Positions 20,599-22,598 of a DNA stretch of 22,795 nucleotides are shown here, in pieces. The notes below the pieces were generated by a model that worked only from the letters and a program-made list of their open reading frames with translations, was not told the origin of the DNA and made no database searches. Every line of letters starts with the position of its first letter. Positions within the stretch are counted from its first letter, which is position 1. Origin of the DNA: Lysobacteraceae bacterium (GTDB taxonomy: Bacteria > Pseudomonadota > Gammaproteobacteria > Xanthomonadales > Xanthomonadaceae); contig JAGNNB010000004.1 in assembly GCA_017990865.1 (NCBI GenBank), positions 1 to 22,795 of the forward strand. The letters run 5' to 3'. The translations under genes were made by a program, and so were the position numbers.

Positions 20599-22598
20599 GT
20601 CTCGTCCTGCGCCGACTCGAGGTGCATACCGGCGCACGCAAGCTGTTGGGCCCGCTCGATCTCGAACTGCATCCCGGCCGTTGCCTCGGCGTGGTCGGCG
20701 AAAGCGGCAGCGGGAAGAGCCTCACCGCATTGTCGATGCTCGGGTTGCTGCCGGCGAATTTGCGCGCCAACGGCACGCTCGCGCTCGAAGGCGACGATAC
20801 GCAAGGTCGCACGAGCGACCCCGAGATCGCGCTGGCCGCGCATGCGTCCAAGGCGCATATCGCGCTGCGCGGACGCATGGTGGCGTGGGTGCCGCAGGAT
20901 CCGCTGGCGTCGCTGCATCCGATGCGCCGCGTCGGTGCGCAACTGCGCGAAACCCTGCGTTTGCACGGACAAGCCGATGCGCAAGCGCGGGCCTTGCTCG
21001 AACGCGTGCGCCTGCCCGACCCCGATGCGGCGCTAACGCGCTATCCGCACGAGTTCTCCGGCGGTCAACGGCAACGTATCGCGATCGCGTTGGCGTTGGC
21101 GTGCAAGCCGCGCTATTTGATCGCCGACGAACCGACATCGGCGCTGGATGCGCGGATCGCACGCGACGTGCTCGATCTGCTCGATGCGCTGCGGCGCGAA
21201 GACGGCCTCGGGCTGATGTTGATCAGTCACGATCTGCCGCTGGTCGGCGCCTACGCCGACGACGTGCTGGTGCTGCGGCGCGGCGCGGTGATCGAACGCG
21301 GCGCGGCGCGCGCGCTCTTCGCCGCACCGCAAGCGGCGTACACGCGCGAATTGTTGGCCGCGGATGCCTTGCCGCAGCCCTCGCCCCTCACCCGCCCTGT
21401 CGGGCACCCTCTCCCCGCTGTGCGGGGAGAGGGAAGAGCGAGCGCGGCGAGCGAGGGTGAGGGGCCGTCTCTCCTCCCCGCCACGCGGGGAGAGGGATTG
21501 CCCGACGTTGTCGTAGGAGCGCCGGAAGGCGCGACCGACATTTCGGGCATATCCGAGTCCATCGCCGCGGTTGCAGTCGCGCCTTCCGGCGCTCCTACAA
21601 ACGCTTCGCCAGGCGTTCCTACAAGTACACACACTCCTGCAACCGATCCGGCTGCTCTCTCATCCCGAGCCGCAGGCGATTCGGCCGCTCCGTCATCCCG
21701 AGCCGCAGGCGAGGGACCTGCTGTTGCCGCGTCGATGGCGGAAGCAAAATTGAAAGAGCAGACACTGGTCTCTCGCCTACCGCTCGGGATGACAGGGGAA
21801 GAGAACGCGCCGCTGTTGCGCGCCGAAGCGTTGACGATGCGCTATCCGCGCGCATCGCGACTCGCGCTCGACGATGTGTCGCTCGTCCTGCATCGCGGCG
21901 AAGGCTTGGCGTTGCTCGGCGAAAGCGGCAGCGGCAAAAGCACGCTCGGTCGCGTGTTGCTGCGATTGGCGCGCGGCGGCCGCGGTCGCGTGTGGTTGGA
22001 CGATGTGGAGCTCACCGCATTGTCCGGCGCTGCGTTGCGCGCGATGCGAAAACGTATCGGCGTGGTGTTTCAGGACCCGTACGCCTCGCTCGATCCGCAT
22101 ATGCGCATCGCCGATCTCATCGCCGAACCGCTGCGCATTCACGGCATCGGCGACGCGGCCTCGCGCGCAGCCAAAGCGGCGGAATTGTTGGCGGCGGTGG
22201 GGCTCGACCCCGCGCTCGCCGCGCGCTATCCGCATCAAGCTTCCGGCGGCCAGCGCCAACGCATCGCGATCGCGCGCGCGCTGGCCTGTGATCCGTTGCT
22301 GTTGGTGTGCGACGAAGCGGTTTCCGCATTGGACGCGCATCATCGCGCCGGGATTCTGCGTCTGCTGGCGCAGTTGAAACACGAACGCGGCCTCGCCCTG
22401 TTGTTCGTCACCCACGACATCGCCGCCGCCGCTGCCGTCGCCGAGCGCATCGCGGTGTTGGATGCGGGCAAGATCGTCGAACTCGGCGCGACCGCCGATG
22501 TGCTGGCGCGACCGCAGCATGCGCATACCCGGGATTTGCTGGCGGCGCGGAGATTTGTGGGAGGCCCGGAAGGGCCGATCGATGGAGCGGTCGCCTGA
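20595..22598 (+). CDS. YejF-like ABC transporter, two fused ATPase domains
   Basis: Powers the peptide-type transporter formed with the upstream permease. The 667-residue protein has two complete nucleotide-binding domains. The first has GESGSGKS (35-42), Q101, SGGQRQR (155-161), ADEPTSALD (177-185) and H212. The second has GESGSGKS (442-449), SGGQRQR (550-556), CDEAVSALD (572-580) and H607. YejF of E. coli has about 529 residues; the difference of about 138 lies almost entirely in the linker, about residues 261-400, which is translated from three repeat families (nucleotides about 21380-21795). The last 14 or so residues ([14 protein letters not shown]) come from a fourth repeat, so the native C-terminus has also been replaced. 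The start at 20595 overlaps the permease stop. The linker may be a flexible spacer. Confidence 0.93.
21384..21499. repeat. REP-like elements in the ABC ATPase linker
   Basis: An outer pair CCCCTCACCC (21384-21393) and GGGTGAGGGG (21455-21464) encloses the hairpin CTCTCCCCGC/GCGGGGAGAG. A second partial copy follows at about 21471-21499. The module is related to those in the MITE at 16845-17185. It is read in frame. Confidence 0.85.
21513..21598. repeat. Inverted GTAGGAGC-type repeat pair in the ABC ATPase linker
   Basis: Two perfect 23-base inverted arms (21513-21535 and 21576-21598) beginning GTAGGAGCGCCGGAAGGC. They belong to the gTaGGAGCg-type REP family known from pseudomonads and xanthomonads. 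A third partial copy (TTCCTACAA) is near 21616-21624. Confidence 0.9.
21660..21793. repeat. TCATCCCGAGC-type repeats in the ABC ATPase linker
   Basis: Two direct copies of TCATCCCGAGCCGCAGGCGA (21660-21679 and 21693-21712) and one inverted, slightly diverged copy (21774-21793). This is the third repeat family in the same linker, also in frame. Confidence 0.88.

Follow-up and report, generated by a model that had tools for sequence, protein, structure and literature searches.

How does a conserved ATPase come to carry, between its two nucleotide-binding domains, a long linker made of palindromic repeats? The question is raised by one gene in the window, that is, the whole stretch of 22,795 nucleotides analysed here, which belongs to a MAG-like assembly of 3.45 Mb in 551 contigs (G000) whose nearest relatives are MAGs titled Lysobacter sp. 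On the plus strand, an open reading frame of 667 amino acids with no internal stop (20595-22598) contains two ABC_tran stretches (Pfam), and its nearest PDB chain is the two-domain DppD of 8wd9. The first nucleotide-binding domain (NBD1; residues 1-259; 20595..21371) was assigned by Pfam and by alignment to this DppD chain, and the second (NBD2; 21801..22553) by the same two comparisons together with dN/dS and pLDDT. Between them lies a palindrome-derived linker of 143 residues (21372..21800), delimited by its repeats and by orthologue comparison and marked by pLDDT values below 50 at residues 264-402.

The ATPase scores 395.5 bits against YejF (NCBIfam PRK15134) and 433.8 bits against GsiA (PRK10261), under the curated cut-offs of 834 and 1077, respectively. 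Against NikD and NikE (TIGR02770 and TIGR02769) it scores 377.9 and 355.9 bits, over cut-offs of 318.7 and 332.55, each score being a sum over two stretches while the models are single-domain. Since the first two cut-offs are missed and the other two are passed only by the two-domain sum, 'YejF-like' denotes a resemblance, and judged from its sequence the ATPase appears to be of the peptide-transporter type. Directly upstream, a single permease (BPD_transp_1) was identified; its open frame (18853..20598, plus strand) carries the domain at its residues 357-536 and probably starts near 19600, and its stop overlaps the ATPase start at 20595-20598. A shikimate dehydrogenase gene lies further upstream on the opposite strand (17221-18195).

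The linker is composed of three palindromic families, all open in one frame, as a sequence-only reading of the window had proposed; the repeat search and the open frame bear this out, and the span then given, 21380..21795, was right to within a few codons. Module 1 (21383..21497, plus strand), found by repeat search, is a CCCCTCACCC...GGGTGAGGGG element with two CTCCCCGC hairpin units (21411-21434 and 21474-21497). Its arms of 16 nt (21383-21398 and 21450-21465) are 88% complementary, dispersed copies cover about 1-118 of the linker query, and in a second MAG, Lysobacter sp. SJ66 (G006; about 530 contigs), the module is 30 nt longer. Module 2 (21513..21598, plus strand) is an 86-nt GTAG-type REP doublet in which a perfectly complementary GTAGGAGC pair of 23 nt (21513-21535 and 21576-21598), already recognised as an inverted pair in the sequence-only reading, encloses 40 nt; the G006 copy is inverted in place. 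This module resembles a REPIN in three respects: it has two inverted REP units around a short spacer, it carries GTAG at the outer end (beginning GTAGGAGC and ending GCTCCTAC), and it has many dispersed genome copies, with many rows spanning 134-222 of the query. A possible decayed GTAG-type 3' arm (ACGCTTCGCCAGGCGTTCCTACA; 21601..21623, plus strand) was noticed by eye next to it and forms a small hairpin in the RNA fold.

Module 3 (21639..21793, plus strand), a TCATCCCGAGC element, has two direct units of 33 nt (21639-21671 and 21672-21704) and an inverted arm (21767-21793), and dispersed copies cover about 306-352 of the query. Three copies of TCATCCCGAGC are indeed present, as had been claimed, two of them direct (at 21660 and 21693) and the third inverted (21782-21792); the outer pair forms 27-nt arms that are 89% complementary. 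Modules 1 and 3, of the CCCCTCACCC and TCATCCCGAGC types, have no GTAG end and by their sequence are classed only as dispersed palindromic repeats. As expected of intragenic in-frame REPs, the inserted DNA lies wholly inside a conserved open frame, is free of stops and is absent from orthologues.

None of 20 Markov shuffles has an inverted repeat as strong as the best one in the linker, and the linker RNA folds with a z of -8.9 against 100 shuffles. The linker DNA has at least 95 matches in G000, itself included, among the best 40 of 145 candidates (E <= 1e-3). A chance low-complexity linker is ruled out by the genome matches, the folding z and the shuffle comparison. A first-order Markov sequence matched to the linker in length and composition lacks stops in a given frame in about 9% of cases, so that the open linker frame by itself counts as mild evidence and the conserved domains that flank it weigh more. 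An Rfam scan of the window gave nothing at the gathering score. Searched in the same way in their own genomes (best 40 candidates per genome, self included), the linkers of four relatives gave at least 64 (G004), 43 (G003), 32 (G005) and 14 (G002) matches. With the same candidates, the family of the G003 linker has at least 43 matches in G003 versus at least 89 in G010, and that of the G002 linker at least 14 in G002, 56 in G010 and 32 in G004. Among the best 40 candidates per genome, G001 gave no match in any of these four linker searches (G002-G005 linkers), and G009 gave none in three and four in the remaining one.

To see how the joint looks in other organisms, NBD2 was used as the query against 395 family genomes drawn evenly from a larger group, with the best seven candidates per genome retained. 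NBD2 was present at E <= 1e-80 in 64 of the 395 genomes and in 11 of 54 genera, and the orthologue set, obtained by a six-frame search with no query other than NBD2, consists of 63 stretches and the window itself. Both domains lie in one open frame in all 64 orthologues. The core linker measures 7-13 residues (median 8) in all 53 orthologues from outside the genus, and 11, 18, 23, 26, 27, 27, 39, 53, 90, 143 and 153 residues in the 11 genus members. The excess of about 138 residues over YejF noted earlier is arithmetically correct (667 residues versus a 529-position YejF profile); it becomes about 135 when the orthologues outside the genus are taken as reference.

An inverted repeat above every shuffle is found in eight of the 11 genus linkers. 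The linkers of G001, G007 (the Lysobacter sp. Bin_5_1 MAG) and G009 have none above shuffles, although that of G007 nonetheless bears a CCCTCACCC-type element by sequence, and none was found in the five linkers tested among the 53 from outside the genus. The palindromes differ from one genus member to another: a GTAGGAGGGCC doublet occurs in G003, G008 and G010, whose spacers are related, a GTGGGAGCGGC doublet in G004, a short mixed element in G002, and CCCCTCTCCC in G005. The linker of G009 ends in ASAAAPTA, which by its sequence is possibly a decayed arm. G006, with 95.5% identity to G000 over the NBD DNA, also carries the long linker. The orthologue alignment thus gives the outcome that the sequence-only reading had anticipated, with modules present or absent and families changing between species; together with the short linkers outside the genus, it supports the view that repeats served as raw material for the linker and that the gap is a hot spot.

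A larger sample, the best 120 of 7,997 homologues ranked by similarity to the G000 protein and hence non-random, shows how local this variation is. Among these 120, the linker ranges from 8 to 153 residues (median 34.5, sd 25.8) and the NBD1 stretch from Walker A to the linker from 205 to 234 (sd 5.6), and among the 114 that were measurable NBD2 spans 246-248 residues (sd 0.2) and the C-terminal tail 5-39. REP-type peptide signatures occur in 108 of the 120 linkers, which were sorted into classes by seven loose peptide-signature families of our own definition. A tree of 131 rows (the 120 homologues and 11 genome rows) was built from this single gene by a quick method, with the linker excluded. 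On it, at least 46 changes of linker class are needed, versus a mean of 82.0 after shuffling; recombination within the gene would inflate this count and could mimic repeated insertion. Counting just the branches that reach 95, the minimum is 12 changes for GGCC (A), 7 for GCGGC (B) and 6 for CTCACCC (D); of the 128 inner branches, 48 stay below 80, and the branch stars of quick trees call for caution. The family differs within the starred sister pairs P0007/P0012, P0025/P0042, P0055/P0065 and P0047/P0054, and also in P0058/P0108 (93), inside a starred trio. The start offsets of the elements vary by several codons among linkers. The GTAG-type arms keep a single reading frame, VG...PT: of the alternative-frame patterns listed for the two commonest families, none fitted in the 131 linkers except one SRLP (P0001, module 3). 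This constancy is compatible both with selection in favour of flexible peptides and with exchange at shared ends.

Some of the differences between close relatives are inversions in place. The 86-nt doublets of G000 and G006 are identical at 83 of 86 positions after reverse complementing versus 61 of 86 directly, and their 40-nt spacer gave 71 flipped versus 10 direct (2,000 shuffles: mean 10.2, maximum 29). For G008 and G010 (91.2% identity), the 30-nt spacer gave 45 flipped and 19 direct, with a shuffle maximum of 30. Both flips leave the frame open. Since the arms are complementary and in register, the ends of the peptide are hardly altered: the flipped forms keep VGAPEGAT...APSGAPT and VGGPSGPS...LGPEGPPT, respectively, and differ in the middle residues. 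Frame -2, onto which the G000 element of GTAG type is mirrored, contains no stop in nine of the 11 genus linkers, the exceptions being those of G007 and G009, and in all 11 the frame in use is richer in Gly/Ala/Pro/Ser/Thr than the other two forward frames. Elsewhere in G000 and G006, where many loci were lost to contig breaks, nine collinear opposite-strand intervals were scored both ways; the GTAG element of the linker (168 flipped versus 76 direct) is the only clear flip, and the direct orientation is better in six others, module 3 of the linker among them. Two intervals in a gene for the fused isobutyryl-CoA mutase IcmF (71 versus 37 and 68 versus 37 in favour of flipping) were not counted as flips because the direct counterpart, missing from the compared stretch, lies inside direct 95-97% alignments.

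Between G000 and G006, dN/dS is 0.08 in NBD1 and 0.03 in NBD2, and 0.47 in the linker tail (5 synonymous and 6 non-synonymous substitutions) and 1.03 in the linker head (first 99 nt), the linker values resting on few changes. The domains are under strong purifying selection and the linker is under much weaker selection. A linker shared by all orthologues and maintained by selection on its protein sequence, which would have spoken against the sequence-only reading, is excluded by the differences between orthologues and by the linker dN/dS. The linker is not simply free of constraint, since its dS (0.092 and 0.062 in its parts) is below that of both domains (0.158); conversion or constraint at the nucleotide level could be the cause. 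An AlphaFold model from a 41-row alignment has a mean pLDDT of 78.3, with NBD1 at 75-97 by blocks of ten, and the linker is predicted to be disordered.

If such elements move, the enzymes concerned may be of the RAYT type. Y1_Tnp (RAYT-type) genes are present in ten of the 11 genus genomes, G001 being the only one without a match; the same genome combines this with a linker that has no palindrome and with no matches to the four linker families. Near 30 Y1_Tnp loci, GTRGGAGS occurs two or more times at nine, once at one and not at all at 20. Repeats of the GTAGGAGGGCC type are found near RAYT-type genes in G010 (L174) and G002 (L167), the 5' type of the G002 linker near one in G004 (L165), and a GCGGC type, a near relative of the type in the G004 linker, beside one in G007 (L177); other repeat families lie near RAYT-type loci in G002, G003 and G005. 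The repeat family of the ATPase C-terminal tail is near RAYT-type genes in G000 (L184) and G006 (L179). G000 has six Y1_Tnp loci. Repeats lie close to one of them, L184, and belong to the GTGGGAGGCCC family and not to module 2; the exact repeat of module 2 was not seen near any of the six. It is plausible that RAYTs mobilise GTAG-type elements; this reading is not extended to modules 1 and 3, which are non-GTAG.

Whether other genes of G000 have taken up repeats in the same way was examined with at least 41 repeat clusters, of which three lay at contig edges and 38 were testable. An automatic rule found three of the 38 to be in frame and stop-free (C170, C118 and the linker itself), with a crude codon score trained only on the ATPase domains; 29 clusters had weak flanks and may hide further cases. 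A manual check of open frames in 11 clusters kept C118 and added C267, which the rule had graded weak; it did not support C170. C118 (L256:1471-3180) codes for an ABC-F ATPase of the YheS type. Compared with the YheS chain 9nlh, it has an insert of 43 residues between positions 325 and 327, to which two repeat types contribute, VGGPEGP... and ...LALPSPHRDGERVAEGRVRG. The insert is present in G000, G006 and partly G007, where the contig breaks, and the site is without it in G001, G002, G003, G004, G005, G008 and G010; in G009 no YheS match was found at 1e-60. C267 (L252:501-4340, minus strand) is the IcmF gene, whose product has additional, repeat-encoded residues between its G-protein part and its mutase part; ATLASPSPRD occurs in frame twice in G000 and five times in G006. 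Further repeat-like stretches (VPPLPPGEGRGEG and FPIPHSRIP) were seen by eye in IcmF elsewhere. Both inserts lie at domain joints or close to them, which is what tolerance would lead one to expect, but three genes are too few for an enrichment test.

The dispersed families, the presence and absence of modules, the change of family at one site, the flips, the weaker selection on the linker and its predicted disorder are probably the outcome of tolerance at a disordered joint and of active palindromic elements, events that break the frame being removed. The linker would be an unstructured joint for which length and sequence are of little importance, and selection, as proposed here, would therefore mainly remove frame breaks and stops. 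In a genus apparently rich in dispersed REP/REPIN families and RAYT-type transposase genes, small palindromic elements may repeatedly enter, replace each other, duplicate or flip at this joint, and the survivors would be those read in a Gly/Ala/Pro/Ser/Thr-rich, Arg/Lys-poor frame, which becomes the linker peptide. Since the mirrored frame is open in most genus linkers, an inversion of a GTAG-type element in place need not break the protein. RAYTs would do the moving, insertion would dominate over recombination, and the choice of frame would reflect selection on the peptide. It counts against this explanation that the families of a linker are not always the most numerous ones in its own genome, that the exact repeat of module 2 was not seen beside a RAYT-type gene of G000, that 20 of the 30 Y1_Tnp loci have no GTRGGAGS nearby, that NBD1 varies in length too, and that frame -2 has stops in G007 and G009. 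The 'successive insertions' of the sequence-only reading are not cleanly separable from swapping or recombination among elements that were there before, and in-place inversion explains at least two of the differences. A partly overlapping account, which we regard as possible and rather doubtful, derives all linkers from a single palindrome in the genus ancestor, later diversified by recombination between lineages or by conversion with genomic copies. Swapping at shared ends would keep the one frame in which GTAG-type arms are read; the related spacers of G003, G008 and G010 and the possible decayed arm of G009 suit common descent, and conversion could cause a linker dS under that of the domains. 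However, the CTCACCC, TCATCCCGAGC, CCCCTCTCCC and CTTGCAAAG families, which have no shared ends, alternate with GTAG types and with short linkers, even between the close relatives P0007/P0012, P0047/P0054, P0055/P0065 and P0058/P0108, and the varying start offsets do not suit a single origin either.

Tolerance together with active elements may also be taken a step further. Tentatively, the linker could be a standing landing pad and REPINs invertible, exchangeable peptide cassettes, in a lasting truce with host proteins at domain joints, so that the linker would track transposase activity; a flip or swap would leave the protein unbroken because either strand of the arms, taken in the mirrored frame, yields much the same kind of Gly/Ala/Pro-rich peptide. 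That the variation itself is favoured, with an invertible and swappable linker tuning the transporter as a form of intragenic phase variation, seems unlikely. Two in-place inversions with open frames, an open frame -2 in nine of 11 linkers and changes between close relatives would suit it; yet no invertase was identified, the flips are seen between genomes, the linker dN/dS is not above about 1, and no further flip was found among the compared repeat loci of G000 and G006. The unrelated YheS and IcmF also have repeat-encoded variable stretches, which suggests a general tolerance. A little less likely still is a linker kept for a function of its mRNA or DNA, for example a hairpin that pauses ribosomes between the domains or controls the operon. 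The folding z, the strong inverted repeats in eight genus linkers and a low dS would all agree with such constraint, but REP doublets fold well anywhere and the folding therefore needs no local function; moreover, no such repeat is found in G001, in G009 or in the five tested of the 53 linkers outside the genus, all 53 of which have only 7-13 residues. Misassembly or a broken gene, with the domains made separately from an internal start, is very improbable. G000 and G006 are fragmented and ATG codons lie just before NBD2, but a nearly identical linker is present in the two MAGs, both domains are strongly purified between genomes that share the long linker, and one open frame is kept in all 64 orthologues, so that a sequencing error breaking the frame, which would have undone the sequence-only reading, does not account for the linker. 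The linker is predicted from sequence to be translated as part of one protein of about 70 kDa.

In the REPINs of Bertels and Rainey (2011), the unit is reportedly made of two inverted REPs and a spacer and is mostly extragenic. The same unit and RAYT-type genes occur in the genome studied here, and the difference is that the unit lies in a coding frame. Intragenic invertons are known in which part of a gene is flanked by inverted repeats and is recoded when it inverts; here the inversion is seen only between genomes, and both orientations are open in the same frame. A limited literature search found no paper by the term intragenic inverton and none on Lysobacter REPs, and in-place flips of REPINs were absent from the titles and the starts of abstracts that it returned. 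According to the available part of the study by Di Nocera, De Gregorio and Rocco (2013, PMC3733652), intragenic GTAG and CGTC REPs are translated dispersed palindromes in open reading frames, often as dimers or clusters, and the clusters encode 43-82 residues; GTAG REPs are linked to RAYTs and often supply TAG stop codons; recB of X. campestris and X. oryzae has different REPs at about one site; and for insertions into flexible linkers or loops the authors put forward neutrality as a possibility. The dispersed in-frame palindromes, their stacking and the tolerance of linkers are therefore shared with that system, as far as this part describes it, whereas here one site is followed through 131 sequences, with seven signature families, at least 46 class changes, outgroups with short linkers and in-place inversions. 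Rickettsia palindromic elements (RPE; Ogata and colleagues), as summarised in the available parts of PMC3733652 and PMC6649704, are likewise in-frame palindromes in protein genes, whose proteins are likely functional; the families and the host are others here, with flips and a change of family at one site. In the mitochondria of Nematomorpha, long inverted repeats also lie in coding sequence, but there the arms encode conserved parts of proteins, as the available part of PMC6649704 has it, and here a variable linker. In-frame insertion of REPs is thus already known (PMC3733652), and the many changes of family at one linker and the in-place flips seem to be new.

The locus offers a natural series from palindromes to a linker, with short linkers that lack such elements and with single, stacked, swapped and flipped elements at one joint, the constrained flanking domains serving as an internal control. 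It makes the rate of REPIN moves and inversions, and the way in which domain linkers gain length in evolution, testable. It is also a warning against taking every such repeat to be 'extragenic', and against comparisons of protein length or sequence, which can mislead.

The repeats also reach the end of the same gene, a feature absent from the sequence-only reading. The C-terminal tail of 13 residues with its stop (22557..22598, plus strand) is derived from a GTGGGAGGCCCGGAAGGGCC repeat, as judged from the sequence and the orthologues, and has pLDDT below 50 at residues 655-667; a second GTGGGAGGCCCGGAAGGGCC copy starts downstream at 22693. In several orthologues, the stop TAG was seen by eye to open a palindrome (TAGGGCGGGC, TAGGAGCG), as in GTAG REPs. 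Elsewhere in the window, a dispersed repeat about 340 nt long occupies positions 16842-17185 and recurs several times in the G006 loci and in G000; it contains a CCCTCACCC element and is possibly a larger mobile unit of that family.
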